A stretch of 64,000 nt of DNA, taken from positions 124,001-188,000 of the forward strand of contig NZ_FPAF01000006.1 in the NCBI RefSeq assembly GCF_900116295.1, in the 5' to 3' direction. The notes beneath the pieces are model-generated. The model did not search any database and was not told the origin of the DNA. It saw only the letters and a list, made by a program, of their open reading frames with translations. The DNA is from Bacillus sp. 103mf (GTDB lineage Bacteria > Bacillota > Bacilli > Bacillales > Bacillaceae_G). Both the position numbers and the translations under genes were made by a program. This document shows positions 7,931-59,632 of the stretch, piece after piece (the first letter of the stretch is position 1; the number at the start of each line of letters is the position of its first letter).

Positions 7931-7960
7931 TATAATTATCTCCTATATAAATCTGTTTTA

Positions 7961-8112
7961 ATGTTTCGACACATAATTCACCGCTATGCAGAATACAACA
8001 TGCTCGCTACCGACCCGCTCCCTTGCATGTGGCAGGAAAAGGCCCTGACCGCTCCTATGCGCGGCCAGATGCTCTTGTCCTCCCCTAAAAGAAAGGGGTT
8101 TTATGTCGTTTT
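7961..8112 (-). repeat. Dispersed repeat family A, copy A4
   Basis: Full-length inverse copy: CCGCTATGCAGAATACAACA at one end, GCATGTGGCAGGAAAAGGCC and ACCGCTCCTATGCGCGGCCA in the core, and a T-rich end. It fills the gap between the GNAT operon and the MFS gene. Confidence 0.85.
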
Positions 8113-8192
8113 TTTAGCTTATATACATATCTTCTATCTTTCACACTTACTTTAATATAATAGAAAGGTTAATAAAACAAGCAGCCTTCTCA

Positions 8193-24084: not shown

Positions 24085-24348
24085 ATGACGCAACCACTTC
24101 CTAATGAATTTTATAAATGGATGGAAGAAATGCAGGAACTCGATTTTGTACTCGTAGAACTCACCCTCTATTTAGATACCCATCCTGATGACGTTGCATC
24201 CATTAAACAATTTAATGATTTTTCCTATAAACGCAGACTATTAAAACAGCAAATTGAAGAAAAATACGGACCGCTTCAACAGTTTGGAAATAGTTATTCA
24301 AAAGCTCCTTGGGAATGGAATAAAGGACCTTGGCCATGGCAAATGTAA
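24085..24348 (+). CDS. cotJB: Spore coat protein CotJB
   Basis: 87 aa starting at the ATG after GGTGAGGCTATT. A helical small protein (FYKWMEEMQELDFVLVELTL, then LDTHPDD) and a Trp/Pro-rich tail (PWEWNKGPWPWQM), as in CotJB. Component of the CotJ inner coat complex; second gene of cotJABC. Confidence 0.93.
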   Translation: MTQPLPNEFYKWMEEMQELDFVLVELTLYLDTHPDDVASIKQFNDFSYKRRLLKQQIEEKYGPLQQFGNSYSKAPWEWNKGPWPWQM

Positions 24349-24361
24349 AGGTGGGGAAAAT

Positions 24362-24931
24362 ATGTGGATATATGAAAAAAAATTACAATATCCTGTAAAA
24401 GTAAGTACTTGCAACCCAAAACTCGCAAAATTTTTAATTGAACAATACGGCGGTGCCGACGGCGAATTAGCTGCTGCACTGCGCTACTTAAATCAGCGCT
24501 ACACCATTCCAGACACAGTTATTGGTTTATTAACAGACATCGGAACGGAAGAGTTTGCACATCTTGAGATGATTGCGACAATGGTATATAAATTAACAAA
24601 AGATGCCACACCTGACCAAATGGTAGCCGCTGGTCTTGATGCTCACTACGCTGATCACGATAGCGCCATTTTCTATCACAATGCTGCAGGCGTCCCTTTC
24701 ACAGCAACCTACATACAAGCAAAAGGAGACCCAATTGCAGATTTATACGAAGACATCGCGGCAGAAGAAAAAGCAAGAGCAACATACCAATGGCTCATTA
24801 ATATGTCCGACGATCCCGATTTAAACGATGGGTTACGTTTTCTACGAGAACGCGAAATTGTTCACTCCCAGCGCTTTCGAGAAGCGGTCGAAATATTAAA
24901 AGAAGAACGAGATCGGCAAATATACTTTTAA
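24362..24931 (+). CDS. cotJC: Spore coat protein CotJC, Mn-catalase family
   Basis: 189 aa starting at ATGTGGATATATG after AAAGGTGGGGAAAAT. It has the di-manganese catalase (ferritin-like) fold with metal ligands in GELAAALRYLNQRY, GTEEFAHLEMIATMV and EDIAAEEKARATYQW, and a final REIVHSQRF. In the spore coat it may remove peroxide. Third gene of the operon; a long perfect terminator follows. Confidence 0.95.
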   Translation: MWIYEKKLQYPVKVSTCNPKLAKFLIEQYGGADGELAAALRYLNQRYTIPDTVIGLLTDIGTEEFAHLEMIATMVYKLTKDATPDQMVAAGLDAHYADHDSAIFYHNAAGVPFTATYIQAKGDPIADLYEDIAAEEKARATYQWLINMSDDPDLNDGLRFLREREIVHSQRFREAVEILKEERDRQIYF

Positions 24932-27154: not shown

Positions 27155-27239
27155 ACCTAATGTTCCTTTCTGTGTAAATAAAGTATCAAACTTTATTCCA
27201 AATCAACACCTAGTCTTTTTATTTTACCTTTAACATATA

Positions 27240-27378
27240 AGTCACTGCTACGCAAAACAAAACATCTCCTGCTCTCATTTCCTACATTTGTTTTAAAGCC
27301 ATGTACGTGGCAAAAATAGGCCCTGACCGCTTCTACGCACGGCCAGTCTCTCTCGCCCACCTAAAAAAGGTTTTTTAG
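27240..27378 (-). repeat. Dispersed repeat family A, copy A6
   Basis: Full-length inverse copy (CACTGCTACGCAAAACAAAA, GTACGTGGCAAAAATAGGCC, CGCTTCTACGCACGGCCAGT, TCTCGCCCACCTAAAAAAGG). It ends 14 bp from the stop of the permease gene at 27392. Confidence 0.85.
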
Positions 27379-29404: not shown

Positions 29405-29556
29405 ATAATTCGCTGCTATGCAGAACGAAACATGCCCCGCTCTTGTTTTCTCTCTTTGTTTTAAATCTTGCACGTGGCAGAAGAAGGCCCTGACCGCTTC
29501 TATGCATGGCCGGTTGCTCTCACCCACGTAAAAAAAGAGGCCTTGGCTTTTTTTAT
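29405..29556 (-). repeat. Dispersed repeat family A, copy A7
   Basis: Full-length inverse copy (CGCTGCTATGCAGAACGAAA, GCACGTGGCAGAAGAAGGCC, CGCTTCTATGCATGGCCGGT, TCTCACCCACG). With A6 it brackets permease pair 1 as direct repeats. Confidence 0.87.
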
Positions 29557-38981: not shown

Positions 38982-39130
38982 CTCAAAGTATCTCTGCCCA
39001 TACATTCTCACAAGTATTATTTTTTTATCGAAGTTTGTTCCTTTTGATATTTTTACTATAACCTTTAATTATTAAGGGATTTTTAACCATATGTGAAGTT
39101 AAAGTAAAAATCTAAATTTTCGTAACATTC

Positions 39131-39152
39131 CGTTCATATTCCGTTCATATTC
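39131..39152 (+). promoter_or_regulatory. HssR-type operator of the MMPL gene
   Basis: Two perfect 11-bp direct repeats, CGTTCATATTC twice, ending 44 bp before the start codon. Matches the GTTCATATT-N2-GTTCATATT form known for HssR. Confidence 0.7.
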
Positions 39153-39196
39153 TTATTTTAAAATCTTCTTGAAGATAATAAGAGGAGGTTATAGAT

Positions 39197-41398
39197 GTGA
39201 TTCATAAACTTGCTCGCTTCATCAGTAGTCCAAAAGGTGCTAAAATCGTGTTAATCGCTTGGATTCTTGCTATTGGCGTTTTAAGTTTCATCGCACCATC
39301 AGCCAAAAAGTACGCAACAAGCAGTGGTGAAGGAAGCATACATGAGGATACGCCGTCTGCTGTAGCCCAAAAGATATTAGACGATCAATTTCCATCCAAA
39401 GATGGAGCAGTCGCCTTACTTGTTTTTCATGGAAAAGACGCAATCACTGAGGCCGAGCGCGCAAAAATTTCAGAAATTAGCAAATGGCTTTCCTCAGATG
39501 ATAAACCGAAAAATGTCGCAAGTGCCTTACCATTTCACCAACTCCCCAAAGCCACACAAGATAAAATGTTCTCCAAAGATAACACAACTATTCTGTTAAA
39601 TGTTGCCCTAACAAAAGATTTAGAATCAGATCAAATTTATGACACATTACAGCAAATCCGAAAACATGTAAAACAAATGGATATCGGAGACTTAAAGCTT
39701 GAGATTACAGGTCCAGCTGGAATTGCAGCGGATACAATTACGCTGTTCAAAAATGCTGACTTCGTATTAATGTTTGCAACAATAGGATTAATTCTCATTA
39801 TATTAATCATCATTTATCGCTCCCCATTGCTGGCTGTCATTCCCTTAATCATTGCCGGTATCGTATATCAAGTAGTCGATCGCATTTTAGGATTAGCAGG
39901 CCAAAATGGATGGTTCGTTGTCGAGAAACAAGCTCTTTCCATTATGATGATTCTACTCTTTGCAGTTTTGACGGATTATTGTTTATTCATCTTAGCTCGT
40001 TATAAAGAAGAGTTAAAAAAGGTGAATTCGAAGTACGATGCGATGCAAACCGCATTAACGCAAGTAATGGAACCTATTCTATTCAGCGGCGGAACAGTGC
40101 TGGTCGCGATGCTTACATTGTTCTTTGCTGTTTTTAAACCGTATCATCACTTTGCCCCAGTATTTTCAGTTGCCATGGTGTTCATTCTTCTTGGAGGCAT
40201 TACACTCATTCCAGCTCTATTTGCACTAGTAGGCCGAAAAGCATTTTGGCCGTTCATTCCAAAACTAGCTGAAAAAGAAGAGAAGCTGGGCGGCTTCTGG
40301 ACAAATGTAGGCACTTTTGTAAAGAAAAAACCTTCCATCACAGCAGTTATACTGTTCATTATGCTCATTCTTGCCTCGCTGAACGTTGGATCTATGAAAT
40401 ATTCATTTAATTTAATGAAGTCATTTCCGAATGACATTTCATCGCGGCAAGGTTTTGAAATTTTAGAGAAAAACTTTCCACCAGGACAACTAGCACCTGT
40501 AACTGTCATTTTAAAATCAGACAAGGAAATTGCATTAGACCAATCCTTTCTTGATAAATTAGCTTCATTATCAAACGCAATGAAAAAACTAGATGGGGTA
40601 AACACCGTCACACCGGAAATCACTTCCGCATTAGCGAATGCGAACTTGCCAAAAAATTTCTTATCGGAAGAAAAACATGCGATCAAACTGCAATTAACTT
40701 TACAAGCTAACCCTTACGACCAGGAAGCTTTAAATACAATCAATACACTCCGAGAAAACAGTAACAGTTTATTAACAAAGAGCGGCTTTGATTCCCAGCA
40801 ATATTCCTTACATTATAGCGGGCAAACCCCGCAGCAATTAGATGTGCTATCTTTAAACCAAAAAGATACAATCGTGACGTTCTCACTCATTTCCCTGTTC
40901 ATTCTCATTATGCTGACATACCAATCACGCTCGATCATTATCGCGTTAACAATGATGATCACAATGCTACTTTCTTATTCAGCAACGCTAGGGCTAGGTT
41001 GGATGATCTTTCATTATATTTTAGGTTACCACTCAATTAGTTATCGCCTACCTGTCTACACCTTTGTGTTTCTCATTGCATTAGGGGTCGACTATAATAT
41101 TATGCTCGTATCCCGAATCAAAGAAGAAGCGCAAAAATATGAATGGAAAGAAGCTGTAGCACGCGGGATTGCTTTAACGGGGGGCGTCATTTCATCAGCT
41201 GGTATTATACTCGCAGCTACATTCGGCGTACTCATTACACAACCACTTCAAGAACTCTTTCTGTTCGGTTTAACAATGACAATGGGGATTTTAATCGATA
41301 CATTTCTTGTTCGTGGTATGCTGCTCCCTTCAATTTTGATTTTTTTCAAACCAAGCCGTTCCAAGCATATTTCTTCACTTCCAACGGATTTAAAATAA
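39197..41398 (+). CDS. MMPL/YdfJ-type RND superfamily transporter
   Basis: 733 aa with 11-12 membrane segments in two halves; each half has one segment, a large outside loop and a five-to-six segment block. Proton-relay-type motifs are seen in LTDYCLFILARYKEELKK (about 273-290) and GVDYNIMLVSRIKEE (about 632-646), as in YdfJ/MmpL. It exports lipids or hydrophobic toxic compounds by proton motive force. Start annotated GTG at 39197 after AAGAGGAGGTTATAGAT. It has the same operator as hrtBA and the HsmA operon, so a role in haem or envelope stress is likely; substrate unknown. Confidence 0.88.
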   Translation: MIHKLARFISSPKGAKIVLIAWILAIGVLSFIAPSAKKYATSSGEGSIHEDTPSAVAQKILDDQFPSKDGAVALLVFHGKDAITEAERAKISEISKWLSSDDKPKNVASALPFHQLPKATQDKMFSKDNTTILLNVALTKDLESDQIYDTLQQIRKHVKQMDIGDLKLEITGPAGIAADTITLFKNADFVLMFATIGLILIILIIIYRSPLLAVIPLIIAGIVYQVVDRILGLAGQNGWFVVEKQALSIMMILLFAVLTDYCLFILARYKEELKKVNSKYDAMQTALTQVMEPILFSGGTVLVAMLTLFFAVFKPYHHFAPVFSVAMVFILLGGITLIPALFALVGRKAFWPFIPKLAEKEEKLGGFWTNVGTFVKKKPSITAVILFIMLILASLNVGSMKYSFNLMKSFPNDISSRQGFEILEKNFPPGQLAPVTVILKSDKEIALDQSFLDKLASLSNAMKKLDGVNTVTPEITSALANANLPKNFLSEEKHAIKLQLTLQANPYDQEALNTINTLRENSNSLLTKSGFDSQQYSLHYSGQTPQQLDVLSLNQKDTIVTFSLISLFILIMLTYQSRSIIIALTMMITMLLSYSATLGLGWMIFHYILGYHSISYRLPVYTFVFLIALGVDYNIMLVSRIKEEAQKYEWKEAVARGIALTGGVISSAGIILAATFGVLITQPLQELFLFGLTMTMGILIDTFLVRGMLLPSILIFFKPSRSKHISSLPTDLK

Positions 41399-41409
41399 TT
41401 GTTCAAAAT

Positions 41410-41446
41410 GAAAAGTGTGCGATCCAGCACACTTTTCGTTTTCTTT
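41410..41446 (+). terminator. MMPL gene terminator
   Basis: GAAAAGTGTGC GATCC AGCACACTTTTC then T-rich: 11-bp stem. Confidence 0.87.
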
Positions 41447-41587
41447 CCAATTATAATAACGTGTTCATAAACATTTCTTATTCTACAAAAGTAAAACCCC
41501 ATCAGTTTTTTCTTCCTCCCCATTGCTCTTCTTTATTTTTTCAAAATGTTAAGGGGAAGGATTACCATATATATCTATTTTAATTTT

Positions 41588-41745
41588 CCGACACATAAGC
41601 CGCTGCTATGCAGAATAAAACATGATCGCTACTTGCTTGCTCCATTTGTTTGAAACCTCGTATGTGGCAGGAGCAGTCCCTGACCGCTTCTATGCATGGC
41701 CAGATGCTCTCGTCTCCCTAAAAAAGAAGGAAGGTTTTAAGCCTT
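41588..41745 (-). repeat. Dispersed repeat family A, copy A8
   Basis: Full-length inverse copy (CCGCTGCTATGCAGAATAAA, CGTATGTGGCAGGAGCAGTC, CGCTTCTATGCATGGCCAGA, CTCGTCTCCC). Confidence 0.87.
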
Positions 41746-41795
41746 TTTTCATTTGTATTTATCTATAAACTATAGACTCGTCTTTTGTAATCTTC

Positions 41796-41817
41796 TGTTC
41801 ATATTCCGTTCATATTT
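41796..41817 (+). promoter_or_regulatory. HssR-type operator of hrtBA
   Basis: TGTTCATATTC CGTTCATATTT: 11-bp direct repeat ending 47 bp before the hrtB start. This is the form I know for the HssR site upstream of hrtAB in Staphylococcus and B. anthracis. Confidence 0.8.
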
Positions 41818-41864
41818 CCTCTTTATGATAAGAACATAGAACGAAACAAGGAGGAACGAGCCTA

Positions 41865-42929
41865 ATGTTTTTAGCACTTAAAGAATTAAAACAATCGAAA
41901 TTACGTTACGGATTAATCGGTACAATCATGATGTTATTATCATTTCTTGTACTTATCATATCAGGTCTAGCAAATGGTTTATCTCATGATAATGCCTCTT
42001 CTATTATCGAGATGAAAGCAAACAAATTTATATTATCAGATGATGCAGATGGTAAATTGCTACGCTCTCAAATTAAGAAAGAAGATGTAGATAAAGTATT
42101 AGCACAAGTTGATGCAAAAGATGCAGTTCCAATGCACATTAAAGTGTCAACATTTGAAAAAGAAGGAACTTCAAATAAAGTTGATGTTGCGATTTTCTCA
42201 AGTAAACAAGATTCATTCATTGCACCAAAAGTAATCGAAGGAAAAAATGGTACGTTAGCAGATAATGAAGTTGTCGCTGATGAATCAATTAAAGAAAAAG
42301 GAATTAAGCTTAACGATGTACTAGTAGATCCTATTTCTAAAAAAGCTTTCAAAGTTGTCGGATTCTCGCAAAATCAAATGTTTAGTCATACACCTGTTAT
42401 TCACATGAATGAAAATGTATGGGACGCTATTGCCTTGCCAAATCAAAAAGATTACAGTGTAATCGCTCTAAATACTGATAAGAAAATCGATAATGCAAAA
42501 GTTGTTGATAAAAAAGAAGTACTACAAAGTATTCCAGGTTATAAAGAAGAACAAGGAACATTAACGATGATTATTGCGTTCTTACTTGTCATTTCAGCAT
42601 TGTTAATTGGTGTTTTCTTCTATGTCATTACATTACAAAAAACACATCAATTAGGTGTATTAAAAGCAATCGGAACGAAAAACTCATATTTAGCAAATAC
42701 TTTAGTTGTACAATCTATATTCTTATCTGGCGTTGCTCTTATTATCGGCATTGGTTTAATCTTTGCGGTGGAGGCTATTTTACCAGCTAGTATGCCGTTC
42801 TTATTAACAACAACAACAATCCTGCAATACACAGGTATCTTTATCTTAATTAGTATATTCGGTACACTCATTTCTCTATATCAAGTATTAAAAGTAGATG
42901 CATTAGAAGCAATCGGAGGTGGCATGTAA
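41865..42929 (+). CDS. hrtB: HrtB-like haem exporter permease
   Basis: 354 aa with four membrane segments: one near the start (about 17-37) and three at the end (FtsX domain). The large outside domain lies between (about 45-225). It resembles HrtB by length, topology, position next to HrtA and the HssR-type operator. Start ATG after CAAGGAGGAACGAGCCTA. HrtAB expels or detoxifies excess haem in the membrane. Overlaps the ATPase gene by one base; here the permease comes first. Confidence 0.87.
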   Translation: MFLALKELKQSKLRYGLIGTIMMLLSFLVLIISGLANGLSHDNASSIIEMKANKFILSDDADGKLLRSQIKKEDVDKVLAQVDAKDAVPMHIKVSTFEKEGTSNKVDVAIFSSKQDSFIAPKVIEGKNGTLADNEVVADESIKEKGIKLNDVLVDPISKKAFKVVGFSQNQMFSHTPVIHMNENVWDAIALPNQKDYSVIALNTDKKIDNAKVVDKKEVLQSIPGYKEEQGTLTMIIAFLLVISALLIGVFFYVITLQKTHQLGVLKAIGTKNSYLANTLVVQSIFLSGVALIIGIGLIFAVEAILPASMPFLLTTTTILQYTGIFILISIFGTLISLYQVLKVDALEAIGGGM

Positions 42930-43642
42930 TGGTAACGGAAGTAAAATGGGATAACCCAGCGTCATTATTGAAGCTCGATCAAGTAAGCAAAGTATATGGC
43001 GAAGGAGAAACGGAAGTAACTGCCCTGCACCCTATTACGTTAGATATAAAAGAGGGCGAATTTATCGGTATTGTTGGCCCATCTGGTTCAGGAAAAAGTA
43101 CATTGCTTTCCATTGCAGGTGCACTTCTCTCTCCTTCAAAAGGAAACATTTATATTTCTGATCAAAACATAACAAGCTTATCAGAAAGGGAAATGACAGA
43201 TATTCGCTTACGAAAAATCGGATTTATATTTCAATTCGCAAATCTCGTACCTTTCTTAACGGTAAAAGAACAACTTCTGTATATCGCTAAGTTAAAGGGA
43301 GAAGATAAAAAAGAAGCTAGTAAGTTTGCGGAACAATTACTGAAAACATTTGGATTAGGACATCGAATGAATCATTATCCAAATCAACTTTCAGGCGGAG
43401 AAAAACAACGTGTAGCTATCGCTCGTGCGTTTATGAATGATCCAGACTTAATTTTAGCAGACGAACCGACTGCTAGCCTTGATTCAAAACGTGCAAGAGA
43501 AGTCGTTGAATTAATGAAACAAGAAGTAAAGAAAAATAAAAAAGCAGCGATTATGATTACACACGATGAAAAAATGCTTGATGTATGCGATCGAATTTTA
43601 ACACTTCGCGACGGAAAATTATTACGAGAAAACGAAGTGTAA
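42929..43642 (+). CDS. hrtA: HrtA-like haem exporter ATPase
   Basis: 237 aa. Walker [12 protein letters not shown] (about 50-60), Q-loop [10 protein letters not shown], signature [12 protein letters not shown], Walker [13 protein letters not shown] and H-loop ITHD. FtsX-permease-associated ATPase group. Second gene of hrtBA; it powers the HrtB-like permease. The ATG overlaps the hrtB stop (GCATGTAATGG). Confidence 0.9.
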
Positions 43643-43655
43643 ACAACAGTAGTCT

Positions 43656-43707
43656 AAAAAAACTTTCTTATCCCTATTTACATAGGGAATAAGAAAGTTT
43701 TTTCTTT
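43656..43707 (+). terminator. hrtBA terminator
   Basis: AAAAAACTTTCTTATCCCTA, loop, complement, TTTTTTCTTT: about 18-bp stem. Confidence 0.95.
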
Positions 43708-43790
43708 ATTCACAAGTACCTCTTCATTTTTCGTTTACAACATAATACAATTTAAATATAATAATTACGCCAATTTCATATGTAATATTG

Positions 43791-43812
43791 CGTTCATATT
43801 CTATTCATAATT
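43791..43812 (+). promoter_or_regulatory. HssR-type operator of the hsmA operon
   Basis: CGTTCATATTC TATTCATAATT: first half perfect, second half with two changes. It ends 54 bp before the preferred GTG start, the same placement as at the MMPL and hrtB genes. Confidence 0.6.
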
Positions 43813-43866
43813 CCCATGTAACATGATTTATATAAGGAACATGACAGTTAGAAAGGAATGATGAAC

Positions 43867-44238
43867 GTGTTGGCATCTGCTATTACATGTATTACAGCTG
43901 CACTCATTTTTTATACAATTGGTGTATGGAGTGAAAAATTCCAAAAGACATTAAAACCTTGGCATGTCGTCATTTTTTGGCTCGGCCTCGTCTGTGATAC
44001 ACTCGGAACGACATTAATGGAAAAAATGGCAGAAGCAGGTTCCCTGTTCAGTTTCCACGGAATCACAGGTCTAGCAGCCATTTTACTCATGTTATTCCAT
44101 GCTGTTTGGGCAACAATTGTGTTAATCAAAAAAGATACAAAAATGATGACAACATTCCACAAGCTAAGTGTTATCGTCTGGTTCATTTGGCTGATCCCAT
44201 ATATTTCTGGTCTTATATACGGAATGACAAACCACTAA
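43867..44238 (+). CDS. hsmA: HsmA family membrane protein
   Basis: 123 aa from the GTG at 43867, nine bases after AAAGGA; in-frame ATGs at 43858 and 43861 are too close to the ribosome binding site. Four membrane segments with conserved His residues (PWHVVIFWLG, GITGLAAILLMLFHAVWAT, FHKLSVIVWFIW), as in TIGR03987/HsmA. In Clostridioides difficile, HsmA binds haem and protects against oxidative stress. The HssR-type operator and hrtBA next door support a haem role here. First gene of a three-gene operon. Confidence 0.8.
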   Translation: MLASAITCITAALIFYTIGVWSEKFQKTLKPWHVVIFWLGLVCDTLGTTLMEKMAEAGSLFSFHGITGLAAILLMLFHAVWATIVLIKKDTKMMTTFHKLSVIVWFIWLIPYISGLIYGMTNH

Positions 44239-44295
44239 TAATCGCAGCCTACTATCCAAAAATAAACATTGCTAATGCTACCTAGGAGGTATATG

Positions 44296-44694
44296 ATGAA
44301 AAAGTTATATAATGCAGCATTCACTTATTTAATTATTGGCCTATTATCAGGTGTATTCGCGAGAGAATATTCAAAAGCGCAAGGAATTCAAGGTACGACT
44401 TCGCTATACAAGTTGCACACACATGTGCTAGTTCTTGGATTTATATTCTTCTTACTTGCCTTAGCTCTATCGAAATTATTTGCAGTCCATGAGGCAAAAA
44501 GTTTTAACATGTGGTTCATCGTCTATAATTTAGGATTAGTTTTAACAGTTGGTTCAATGGCGACCCGCGGACTTCTTCAACTCAATGGAGCTGATTTTAA
44601 AGGATTAAGTCATATTGCTGGAATGTCTCATACGATCATTGGTATCGCTCTCGTTTGGTTTATGATTCTATTAAAAAAATCGTTTAAAGGATAA
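44296..44694 (+). CDS. DUF2871 membrane protein
   Basis: 132 aa from the ATG after CCTAGGAGGTATATG (the frame extends nine codons upstream). Four membrane segments with conserved His residues (LYKLHTHVLVLGF, GLSHIAGMSHTIIGIALV), as in DUF2871. The histidines look suited to bind haem or metal, but this is inference. It lies between HsmA and CcdC-like genes. Function unknown. Confidence 0.82.
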   Translation: MKKLYNAAFTYLIIGLLSGVFAREYSKAQGIQGTTSLYKLHTHVLVLGFIFFLLALALSKLFAVHEAKSFNMWFIVYNLGLVLTVGSMATRGLLQLNGADFKGLSHIAGMSHTIIGIALVWFMILLKKSFKG

Positions 44695-44707
44695 AAGGAG
44701 GTCAAAC

Positions 44708-45190
44708 ATGAACTTAGCTGTTCTATCGAGTATTGTTGCTCTTTGTATGGCTGTTGGAATGATGTTCCTTCGCTTAAAATCAGCAAAGAAACCTGTAACA
44801 CTGAAAAAAATTATACTCCCGCCATTTTTTATGAGTACGGGAGCATGCATGTACATCTTGCCAGAATTTCGCTTAACATCAACTGAAATTATAGAAGCAG
44901 TTATCGTTGGTTTATTTTTCTCTATTTTTCTTATTAAAACATCAAAATTTGAAATACGCGGAAAAGACATCTTTTTAATACCTTCTAAAGCGTTTATCTT
45001 TATTTTAGTCGGTTTACTTGCTGTCCGCATCGGTATGAAAGAATATTTAAGTCAATCAATTGATTTAGGACAATTAAGCGGTATGTTCTTCTTACTTGCC
45101 TTTGCGATGATCGTCTCTTGGAGAATTGGCATGTACCGTTCGTTTATGAAATTACAAAAAGAAATGAACTTTGTAAGCAAGAGTGTTTAA
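44708..45190 (+). CDS. CcdC-like membrane protein (DUF1453)
   Basis: 160 aa, four to five membrane segments. Family features are VGMMFLRLKSAKKPVTLKKI and KIILPPFFMSTGACMYILPEFR (about 32-55), typical of CcdC/DUF1453 proteins of Bacillus. CcdC is next to ccdA in B. subtilis but its function is unclear. ATG after AAAAGGAGGTCAAAC. Third gene of the HsmA operon; links haem stress to cytochrome-c or thiol-type membrane chemistry only by name. Confidence 0.83.
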   Translation: MNLAVLSSIVALCMAVGMMFLRLKSAKKPVTLKKIILPPFFMSTGACMYILPEFRLTSTEIIEAVIVGLFFSIFLIKTSKFEIRGKDIFLIPSKAFIFILVGLLAVRIGMKEYLSQSIDLGQLSGMFFLLAFAMIVSWRIGMYRSFMKLQKEMNFVSKSV

Positions 45191-45229: not shown

Positions 45230-45347
45230 TTAAAAACCTTTCTTTTTTAGATGGGCGAGAGCAGCTGGCCTTGCATAGAAGCGATCAGGGCCTTTTTCTG
45301 CCACGTGCAAAGTTTAAAACAAAGGGAGAAAGCGAGTAGCAACGACT
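45230..45347 (+). repeat. Dispersed repeat family A, copy A9
   Basis: Plus orientation (GATGGGCGAGAGCAGCTGGC, AGAAGCGATCAGGGCC, CTGCCACGTGCAAAG). Ends 11 bp from the stop of the permease at 45358. Confidence 0.85.
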
Positions 45348-51837: not shown

Positions 51838-51990
51838 TAAAAACCCTTTTCTTTTTCGGTGGGCGAGAGCAACTGGCCATGCATAGAATCGCTCAGGGCC
51901 TAATTCTGCCACATGCGCAGCGAAAACCAAAAAGAGCAAACAAGTGCAGGTTCCTTTTTTTCATAGTAGCAATCTATATGTAAAAAAAAA
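51838..51990 (+). repeat. Dispersed repeat family A, copy A11
   Basis: Full-length plus copy (CGGTGGGCGAGAGCAACTGG, CATGCATAGAATCGCTCAGG, CTGCCACATGCGCAGCG, CATAGTAGCAATC). Confidence 0.85.
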
Positions 51991-57262: not shown

Positions 57263-57296
57263 AAAAATCGCCTTACTTTATGTAAGACGATTTTTA
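57262..57296 (-). terminator. Terminator of the two-component operon
   Basis: AAAATCG-cc-TTAC / GTAA-ga-CGATTTT stem; the minus strand ends in T-run. Confidence 0.75.
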
Positions 57297-58703
57297 TGAC
57301 CTGAGAAAACGTATGATAAACGTTGTTCCTTTATCTTGTTCACTCGTTACTTCAATCGTTCCATCGTGCAGTTTCACAAGTTCCTTGACAATCGATAACC
57401 CTAATCCAAATTCACCATAGCTATTCGTTCTAGAAGCATCCGCTTTATAAAAACGCGACCATATGACAGCGACTTCTTCTTGCTTCATTCCTATTCCTGT
57501 ATCTGTAATTTCAATACTTATTGTTTGTCCTTCTTTTTTTCCTCGTAATAGAATCGTTCCGTTCTCTGTAAATTGCAGACTATTTTTGGTGATGTTCAGT
57601 AAAATTTGAAGCAACCGGTCATAATCAGCGTAAACAAATAAACGAGCCGGGACATCGATTTCAATTTTATTTCCTTTTTCTTCTGCTTGCAGTTCTAATT
57701 GTTCACTAATGACTTCAAAGATTTCCTTTACGTCAATTTCTTCTTTTTGAAGTGTAATTTCATTTGAAAGAATTTTTTCATAGTCTAACGTTTCATTAAC
57801 GAGGCGAATCAATCGCTTCGTTTCTTGTTCCATCATTTCATAGCAGCGCTGCTTTTTCTCCTCTGGAATGAGATCATTCTTCATCCCTTCTACTAAACCA
57901 TTCATTGTTGTAAGCGGTGTTTTTAATTCATGGGAAACATCAGCAATAAATTGACGTTTTCGCTTTTCTAAACGATTGATTTCTGTCTGTGCTTTCTGAA
58001 GTTGCTGTGCCATATTATTAAAATCGTTTCCGAGCAAACCAATTTCATCATATTGTCCAATAGGAATATGTACATCATACTGACCTTTTGCAATCATTGC
58101 GGTTGCCTTGCGAAGGCGCTGCACCCGTTTTACTAAAGAGCGCGAGAAAAAAATACTGACTACGAGTACAATTAGAAACGTAACACCTGCTGCAATTAAT
58201 AAATAACGATTTAATTCCGTAATAATTTCAAGTGTACTGTGAATGGGAGACGTTAACATCACACCTCCTTGCAGTTCACCATTTCTCATATATGGAATCG
58301 CAACAATTGATACAGGCTGTTCAAATCTGTTCACGTCTCGTTTTATTTTCAATGTTTCACCATGTTGAATTTTCTTCCATTCCGCCTCGCTTAACAATGG
58401 ATTTTTCTTTACATGAACGGGTGATTGCGTAATTTCTCCCTTTTCATTAAAGATGAAAAACTTTGTGTCACGTGCACGTAATAGACTAGAAAAATGTTTC
58501 AATTTCACAACATGAACATCCATTTCTTTTTTCTCAAGCTCATCAATAATTTTAGTCCCATAAGAAGTAAGCTCTTCTACCTTTGTTTCATAAGCAAGAT
58601 TTTCAGCTAAACTTAAAAACATGACGCTTAATAGAATAAAGGCAACAAGTAAAACAAAAATGTAACTAAACAATAACTTATAAAAATATTTAATCCTTTT
58701 CAC
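57294..58703 (-). CDS. Membrane sensor histidine kinase
   Basis: 469 aa. First membrane segment (about 9-31), an outside sensing region (about 32-166), a second segment (about 167-188), HAMP (about 189-240), dimerisation domain with phospho-acceptor His258 in SHELKTPL, and ATPase domain with NSLQF N-box, DTGIGM and GEFGLGLS. It phosphorylates the response regulator encoded just upstream (genes overlap by 14 bp). The signal is unknown. It could be the haem sensor for the operators at 39-44 kb but the sequence does not show that. Confidence 0.92.
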   Translation of the reverse strand: MKRIKYFYKLLFSYIFVLLVAFILLSVMFLSLAENLAYETKVEELTSYGTKIIDELEKKEMDVHVVKLKHFSSLLRARDTKFFIFNEKGEITQSPVHVKKNPLLSEAEWKKIQHGETLKIKRDVNRFEQPVSIVAIPYMRNGELQGGVMLTSPIHSTLEIITELNRYLLIAAGVTFLIVLVVSIFFSRSLVKRVQRLRKATAMIAKGQYDVHIPIGQYDEIGLLGNDFNNMAQQLQKAQTEINRLEKRKRQFIADVSHELKTPLTTMNGLVEGMKNDLIPEEKKQRCYEMMEQETKRLIRLVNETLDYEKILSNEITLQKEEIDVKEIFEVISEQLELQAEEKGNKIEIDVPARLFVYADYDRLLQILLNITKNSLQFTENGTILLRGKKEGQTISIEITDTGIGMKQEEVAVIWSRFYKADASRTNSYGEFGLGLSIVKELVKLHDGTIEVTSEQDKGTTFIIRFLRS

Positions 58704-59376
58704 AGACAGCTACCACTTCATCAAATTTGTAACCGATGCCCCATACAGTATGAATCCATATATGCGAGTCAGTCCTAATTTTTTTACGAAGCCGTTTAAT
58801 ATGTACATCCACCGTTCGTTCATCTCCGTAAAATTGATATCCCCAAATGCGTTCTAAGAGCTGCTCTCTTCGAAATACTTGGCGTGGGTGCTTCGTAAAA
58901 AAGAGGAGTAATTCAAATTCTTTTGGCGTTAAATTATTCACTTTCACGCCGTCTAAAAATACTTCTCTCGTTTCTTCATTAATATGAAAATGATTCGTTT
59001 CACTTTTTACCTGTTTTTTGGATAAACGACGAACAACTGCCTTCATCCTTGCGATTAATGCAAGCGGGCTAAACGGCTTTGTAACATAATCATCTGCCCC
59101 AATTTCTAACCCTAGCACTTGATCTGCTTCGCTATCTTTTGCTGTTAACATAATGATAGGAACGTCACTGCTTTCTCTTATTTTTTTACATAGTTTTATA
59201 CCATCCATCCCTGGAATCATCCAATCTATAATAAGCAAATCCCATTCTTTCTTTTGAACCAATGCATATGCTTCTAAGCCATCTGCGACAAATGTTACTT
59301 GAAAGTTTTCTTTCAAAAAAAACATTTCAAGCATGGAACACACACTCTCATTATCCTCTACAATTAATACATGCAT
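58690..59376 (-). CDS. OmpR-family response regulator
   Basis: 228 aa from the ATG at 59376, ten bases after GGAGA; the frame runs 38 codons up into a family B repeat, which is not coding. Receiver domain with Asp51 in IIDWMIPGMDG and Lys in VTKPF; winged-helix DNA-binding end with LTPKEFELLLFF and DERTVDVHIKRLRKKI. Pairs with the kinase downstream. OmpR-type regulators bind 10-11-bp-phased direct repeats such as those found in this window. Confidence 0.93.
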   Translation of the reverse strand: MHVLIVEDNESVCSMLEMFFLKENFQVTFVADGLEAYALVQKKEWDLLIIDWMIPGMDGIKLCKKIRESSDVPIIMLTAKDSEADQVLGLEIGADDYVTKPFSPLALIARMKAVVRRLSKKQVKSETNHFHINEETREVFLDGVKVNNLTPKEFELLLFFTKHPRQVFRREQLLERIWGYQFYGDERTVDVHIKRLRKKIRTDSHIWIHTVWGIGYKFDEVVAVCEKD

Positions 59377-59472
59377 CGCAGCATCTTCTCCATTCATTGA
59401 AATCTTTTTCTTCATTTTAAAACTCTTATCATATAGAAACAACTTGCTACCTCTCTTTTTTCGTACATACAT

Positions 59473-59632
59473 ATAAAGTGAAACTTCCATCAGCGGGGGT
59501 TTTCTTCATCCCCACTGATGGAAAGCCCGCCCAATCGGGCTTTTACGGGCAGTTATCCTCCACCTATCTTCTTCGATTCTCTCTCAATCTTGAGGTGGGG
59601 GTTTTACTGCCCGTTAATGCGGGATAAATCTA
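59473..59632 (+). repeat. Dispersed repeat family B, copy B6
   Basis: Complete plus copy (AAAGTGAAACTTCCATCAGC, CCCCACTGATGGAAAGCC, GCCCAATCGGGC, CACCTATCTTCTTCGATTC, TTGAGGTGGGGG, TTACTGCCCGTTAATGCGGG). Confidence 0.87.

Follow-up and report, generated by a model that had tools for sequence, protein, structure and literature searches.

A candidate HssR-type, haem-responsive regulon spans an MMPL exporter, hrtBA and an hsmA operon in Bacillus sp. 103mf

The 64-kb stretch of Bacillus sp. 103mf DNA analysed here (contig NZ_FPAF01000006.1, positions 124,001 to 188,000; hereafter the window) contains three neighbouring transcription units, which encode an MMPL-family exporter, the hrtBA exporter, and the small membrane proteins HsmA, DUF2871 and CcdC, and a strong operator is positioned before each of them. 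Judged from their sequences, these units probably constitute one haem-responsive regulon under an HssR-type response regulator, which would thereby combine two exporters, one of the ABC and one of the MMPL type, with a set of small haem-type membrane proteins.

Results

Three adjacent units share an operator and a promoter geometry

The direct repeat GTTCATATT-N2-GTTCATATT is found upstream of all three units, with two mismatches at the hsmA site. A window search with GTTCATATTNNGTTCATATT gave exact matches at 39132 and 41797 and a match with two mismatches at 43792, and the same holds for the consensus core GTTCATATTCCGTTCATATT, which is exact at the first two positions and present as a two-mismatch version at the third, each 44–54 bp 5′ of the gene start. 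The 20-mers of the MMPL and hrtB operators are identical, whereas three bases of the 20-base hsmA core in the window are not those of the hrt core. With up to three mismatches allowed, the window yielded four matches (one at 43781 overlaps that at 43792) against 0.25 expected, and none of 100 shuffles produced four. A weight matrix trained on the hrtB promoters of other genomes, described below, scored the three sites at 29.5, 29.5 and 19.6, the best non-overlapping site elsewhere in the 64 kb scoring 13.5.

The first-pass annotation of this DNA had proposed that the three adjacent units share an 11-bp-phased operator, and the mismatch search, the shuffles and the hrtB-trained matrix all bear this out. 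It overlooked an additional half-site, (C/T)GTAA, that lies one 11-bp step upstream of every repeat (39121, 41786 and 43781), and a -10 element, TANNNT, placed 7 bp after each core. This core-N7-TANNNT arrangement is present at 3/3 window units and has the geometry seen at hrtBA promoters (28/28 hrtB sites), TANNNT having a frequency of 0.023 at a random window position. The operator-to-start distances given earlier for the first two units, 44 and 47 bp, were right, and the third is either the 54 bp given earlier, if measured to GTG 43867, or 45 bp, if measured to ATG 43858; the aligned hsmA homologues begin at the position equal to GTG 43867.

Just two 9-bp words are involved, and it could be argued from this that the shared repeats arose by chance, or are copies of one promoter, without common control, which we regard as barely credible. 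A chance origin is contradicted by the match counts in the window, by the scan with the hrtB-trained matrix and by the fixed -10 geometry, which recurs in other genomes, and recent copying of one promoter across the three units is unlikely because their flanks are dissimilar, at 25–47% identity in the pairs compared.

The promoter recurs before hsmA, MMPL and DUF2871 genes of other Bacilli

Phylogenetic footprinting relied on a single draw of 299 genomes from the class, so that the comparison genomes are Bacilli, none of them recognised as a member of the Bacillus cereus group. Searches with a separate E-value limit for each protein detected hrtB in 135 genomes, MMPL in 76, HsmA in 17, DUF2871 in 30 and CcdC in 230, for which 30, 30, 17, 30 and 30 loci, respectively, were fetched. 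The matrix covers 20 positions and was trained solely on hrtB promoters (28 of the 30 fetched), with a score of at least 12 defining a site; the control set comprised 445 open reading frames (ORFs), some of which are not genes, called by a simple ORF finder on 42 fetched regions after removal of the target genes. An operator no more than 200 bp upstream was present for 14/17 hsmA, 9/30 MMPL and 4/30 DUF2871 genes compared with 2/445 control ORFs (Fisher P of 4e-22, 2e-10 and 2e-4, values that overstate independence, as the genomes are not phylogenetically independent). When the distance was extended to 700 bp, 16/30 MMPL genes were operator-positive, several of the sites being upstream of the gene that precedes MMPL. 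No operator was detected by the hrtB-trained matrix before any of the 30 fetched ccdC homologues.

The -10 element is at offset 7 in 17/18 MMPL, 15/15 hsmA (Bacillus badius included) and 4/4 DUF2871 sites, and the upstream TGTAA box is found at 26/28 hrtB and 15/18 MMPL sites, but at just 2/15 hsmA sites. The MMPL tallies come from two checks: the 16 operator-positive genes include one (L094, score 14.3, within 700 bp) that failed the separate -10 and geometry check, and the 18 sites passing that check include one without a -10 element (L077), which is probably false. Among the plasmid records carrying hsmA, of which three of six were examined, the operator and its -10 offset are present in that of B. 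badius. A TIGR03987 search of three genomes gave no match, and 14 control genomes likewise gave none.

The window HrtB is 81% identical to a protein of Heyndrickxia sporothermodurans (L001), whose gene carries the operator with one mismatch, and the best HrtB of the 299 drawn genomes reaches just 48%; a transfer is possible. Among 15 hrtB relatives obtained by similarity search, the operator (up to three mismatches) was found in the Heyndrickxia locus only.

Operator-bearing genomes encode HssS-like sensors

With the sensor half of one kinase from these HssRS-type loci as query, an HssS-like sensor was found in 14/14 operator-positive versus 0/3 operator-negative hsmA genomes, in 16/16 operator-positive versus 4/14 operator-negative MMPL genomes, and in all four genomes with an operator-bearing DUF2871 gene (G191, G006, G169 and G204). 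The gene order response regulator-kinase-operator-MMPL recurs in several relatives, paralleling the order response regulator-kinase-operator-hrtBA, and at one locus (L164) hsmA and an hssRS pair point away from each other, the operator preceding hsmA. The response regulators at MMPL or hsmA loci are 50–68% identical to those at hrtBA loci (17 compared). In three genomes (G054, G143 and G039) the sole HssS-like match adjoins hrtB while the operator-bearing hsmA lies at least 230 kb away or on a different contig, and in a fourth (G112) the one HssS-like match is on a contig other than those of both MMPL and hsmA, an arrangement expected of a regulon rather than a local pair. At two loci (L126 at 12538 and L148 at 5149) the response regulator gene that neighbours MMPL or hrtBA has another operator upstream of it, which suggests autoregulation.

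Taken with the footprinting and the fixed promoter geometry, the co-occurrence of HssS-like sensors supports the first-pass proposal that the MMPL and hsmA units share the response of hrtBA. The same proposal had included the whole HsmA operon, and here the support differs by gene, ccdC being a putative member by its position as third gene of the operon.

Passages of published work on Staphylococcus aureus HssS name residues F25, R94, F128 and R163 (PMC11237747), and a kinase from the draw (L269) carries all four at those numbers. The main-branch MMPL-linked kinases have F128 and R163 in 8/8 cases, K or R at position 94 in 7/8 and F25 in 6/8. Position 163 is H in five more kinases beside MMPL, at loci where one more gene separates the operator from MMPL, as it is in a sixth MMPL-linked kinase (L281), in an hsmA-linked kinase and in five hrtBA-linked kinases. 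The conserved HssS-type residues of the MMPL-linked kinases are compatible with haem sensing but do not prove it, because conservation of such residues within a family may have other causes.

HsmA and DUF2871 have invariant histidines

In HsmA, H36, H67, H81 and H101 are invariant in 19/19 aligned sequences, and its structural model returned chiefly general four-helix matches. In DUF2871, H41, H43 and H112 are invariant in 31/31 sequences of one alignment and 28/28 of another, and its model (predicted local distance difference test score of 92.9) may resemble part of subunit I of haem-copper oxidases (four helices, 13–19% identity); no subunit I family match was obtained for any of 28 DUF2871 members at E values up to 5, and PDB sequence searches gave no oxidase subunit I match either. 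A profile comparison of DUF2871 with a four-helix protein located before MMPL lines up their HxH motifs at a probability of 14%, a weak likeness.

Two types of small membrane protein were observed at related loci. One, with a HAHIL motif and a weak likeness to DUF2871, follows the operator in L137 (4097–4492), L136 (6262–6714), L180 and L181, and in L136 and L137 it precedes a second MMPL type. The other, in which FLHL is invariant, lies after MMPL at HssRS-MMPL loci (L126 7482–7922, L129 5730–6194, L131 8588–9046 and L134 8870–9319), and one of these FLHL proteins has a weak match to UPF0093, a family containing HemJ.

A wider search for the repeat

The pattern GTTCATNTTNNGTTCATNTT occurs at 78 places in 59/299 genomes compared with 4 for a reversed control (both hand counts), and in 4/15 genomes of the order to which G069 belongs. 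Thirty of the 75 places examined precede alpha/beta-hydrolase-like genes, and here the -10 element is at offset 7 in 1/30 cases, compared with 30/30 for hrtB, 4/4 for AcrB-type, 3/3 for hsmA, 2/2 for four-helix genes and 1/6 for others, on which ground we rejected the idea that HssR acts at all GTTCATNTTNNGTTCATNTT sites. The hydrolase-like genes, a motif-based label with a Pfam scan for 1 of the 30 proteins, follow the exact repeat in L178 and L239–L262, some in tandem, and their sites probably belong to another regulator with a similar site. AcrB-type RND pumps come right after the operator in L177, L185, L230 and L267, two of the four being Pfam-scanned and confirmed, and are another kind of exporter under the same promoter.

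Genes and flanking elements of the window

The gene identities given in the first-pass annotation hold throughout (Table 1). The MMPL protein scores 361.9 bits against PF03176, for which the cut-off is 20.5, placing it in the MMPL family; an FtsX permease and ABC ATPase pair, as expected of an HrtBA exporter, is encoded downstream of the second repeat; and HsmA exceeds the cut-off of its family model.

Table 1 Operators, -10 elements and genes of the three units, in window coordinates
Feature	Coordinates	Strand	Details
MMPL-unit operator	39121..39151	+	half-site CGTAAC (39121) and GTTCATATT-CC-GTTCATATT (39132-39151)
MMPL-unit -10 element	39159..39164	+	TAAAAT, 7 bp past operator core
MMPL/RND-family exporter	39197..41398	+	733 aa, GTG start; PF03176 E=3.5e-108; TIGR00833 below its cut-off
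hrtBA operator	41786..41816	+	half-site TGTAAT and GTTCATATT-CC-GTTCATATT (41797-41816)
hrtBA -10 element	41824..41829	+	TATGAT, 7 bp past core
hrtB-type FtsX permease	41865..42929	+	PF02687
hrtA-type ABC ATPase	42929..43642	+	PF00005
hsmA-operon operator	43781..43811	+	half-site TGTAAT and GTTCATATT-CT-ATTCATAAT (43792-43811)
hsmA-operon -10 element	43819..43824	+	TAACAT, 7 bp past core
hsmA, four-helix membrane protein	43858..44238	+	start 43858 or 43867; TIGR03987 180 bits, cut-off 78.2
DUF2871, four-helix membrane protein	44296..44694	+	PF11070; invariant HxH
CcdC-family (DUF1453) membrane protein	44708..45190	+	PF07301; co-directional, 13 bp past DUF2871

The hrtBA-hsmA block is bracketed by 101-nt inverted repeats (41628–41728 and 45240–45340) that are 81% complementary and are members of a dispersed repeat, of which the window has about ten more complete or partial copies (for example, 7945–8113, 27220–27369, 29405–29535 and 51841–51945) and which may be an intergenic repeat of the B. 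cereus group. Elsewhere in the window, at 24254–24931, a manganese catalase homologue of 225 residues aligns only with positions 1–199 of its 284-position profile and may be short.

Discussion

Available passages of earlier work describe HssR as acting on the hrt repeat in Bacillus anthracis and S. aureus HssS as binding haem at the membrane surface. In the mechanism that we predict from sequence for the window, haem in the membrane would be the signal that activates the sensor kinase HssS, and the phosphorylated response regulator, of the OmpR type and the HssR family, would bind the 11-bp-phased GTTCAT repeats, helped by the upstream (C/T)GTAA half-site, and recruit RNA polymerase to the -10 element 7 bp downstream. 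The predicted outputs would be HrtBA, which would extrude haem, the MMPL exporter, which would probably clear haem or membrane amphiphiles tied to haem damage, and HsmA together with DUF2871, which would act as membrane haem-binding, buffering or redox proteins.

Several observations weigh against placing all three units in a single haem regulon. There is no HssRS within the 64-kb window, and the two-component pair that HssRS queries found there (57294–59490) was rejected as the regulator, since it has a different type of H-box and lacks the HssS pocket. The MMPL genes of relatives often have their own adjacent HssRS paralogue, which may sense something else, as HitRS does, and 14/30 MMPL homologues have no operator within 700 bp. 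For hsmA, the copies on Paraclostridium and Enterococcus plasmids (L047 and L048) are without an operator, leaving one of three fetched plasmids positive, and the phylogenetic dependence among the comparison genomes also counts here. Finally, in B. cereus ATCC 14579 hrtA and hrtB are BC3222 and BC3223 and the four RND proteins are BC0714, BC1291, BC4405 and BC5435, as far as passages of one study list them (PMC5417439), and in this strain hrtBA thus apparently lacks an MMPL neighbour, for which reason we slightly lowered our still considerable confidence in the single regulon and suggest that the MMPL unit may be strain-dependent. In favour of the regulon, one study reported hrtAB and hssRS in every B. 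cereus strain that it covered (PMC4896950).

The substrate of the MMPL exporter may be an amphiphile other than haem, because MMPL genes elsewhere often follow TetR-like genes. The exporter might carry fatty acids, lipids or a siderophore under whichever envelope sensor the lineage owns and move no haem at all, a reading to which we give slightly less than an even chance. Seven of 12 operator-negative MMPL homologues examined sit after TetR-like genes (judged by eye, with no family scan), which also counts among the points against the single regulon and recalls the FarE-FarR pairing described in passages on S. aureus (PMC10019231), and ApeX, an RND-type protein found by an MmpL4 search, is reported to export petrobactin in B. 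anthracis (PMC5596346). Set against these points are the co-occurrence of the operator with an HssS-like sensor in MMPL genomes, the reported role of mycobacterial MmpL3 and MmpL11 as haem carriers (PMC7516205), and the finding that hrtB was not detected (E 1e-30) in 13/16 operator-positive MMPL genomes (P 0.04), as if MMPL had replaced it.

A related consideration is whether the promoter answers HssR or a paralogue such as HitR, in which case the MMPL promoter, and perhaps that of hsmA, would respond mainly to envelope or amphiphile stress, with haem a secondary signal acting through cross-regulation. Passages of work in B. anthracis indicate that four bases set the HitR repeat apart from the hrt repeat and suffice to switch the stimulus answered by the promoter, and that HssR and HitR cross-regulate, HitR acting on hrt (PMC3968170). 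Since the MMPL and hrtB cores of the window are identical and so few bases can switch the stimulus, HssR is favoured for the MMPL promoter, whereas the window hsmA core, being three bases off, could answer both regulators. The MMPL-linked HssS-like kinases are mostly on their own branches and have F at position 165 in 0/14 examined, which fits a HitR-type regulator, but the main-branch members keep the HssS residues described above, and overall we consider predominant control by such a paralogue unlikely.

If, as we think probable, an HssR-type regulator governs all three units, a broader reading may be ventured, which we offer tentatively and hold to be rather doubtful as a whole. HssR-type regulators in Bacilli would command a modular defence against membrane haem, composed of an exchangeable exporter (HrtBA, MMPL or AcrB-type RND) and equally interchangeable membrane proteins with four helices and histidines (HsmA, DUF2871 and the HxH protein before MMPL); MMPL would be able to replace HrtBA as haem exporter, and DUF2871 would be a fragment of the haem-copper oxidase fold, standing on its own and binding haem via its HxH motif. 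The usual account of HssRS has it turn on a single exporter, and if MMPL and the membrane haem proteins do belong to the regulon, then mutants lacking hrtBA only under-report haem defence, HsmA and DUF2871 acquire a role that can be tested beyond Clostridioides, and the rule of an operator, 7 bp and a -10 element allows HssR targets to be listed in sequenced Bacilli. The passages returned by our literature search contain no paper tying MMPL, HsmA or DUF2871 to HssR, and an earlier operator prediction of these targets may exist beyond them.

Comparison with known systems

HsmA belongs to the same family as HsmA of the Clostridioides difficile HsmRA system, by a score above the NCBIfam cut-off, but that protein is induced by the MarR-type HsmR according to the passages seen of a 2025 review, which lists HssRS with hrtAB and hssRS itself and places HsmA under HsmR (PMC12670364), whereas the hsmA promoters of the window and of 14/17 Bacilli are of the HssR type. 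DUF2871 may be related in fold to subunit I of haem-copper oxidases and nitric oxide reductases but is a stand-alone protein of 132 residues, with the low identity and the lack of a sequence family match given above. FarE, under the TetR-family FarR, and YdfJ, under YdfHI, are Gram-positive exporters of the same superfamily as MMPL, each with a dedicated regulator; they differ in those regulators, and the literature passages seen give them no link to haem. HitRS-HitPQ of B. anthracis is a paralogous two-component system with a closely similar repeat, differing by four repeat bases and in its stimulus.

The HssRS-HrtBA system of Staphylococcus, B. anthracis and Listeria has the same operator and the same hrtBA target, and its two-component family is found beside hrtBA, MMPL or hsmA in relatives. 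Its promoters, in the passages available, are those of hrtAB and hssRS, with Phit added in B. anthracis through cross-regulation, whereas here two further units carry the promoter and hrtBA does not adjoin hssRS in the window. The whole would thus be the known haem response of HssRS, its outputs being more numerous and in part interchangeable.

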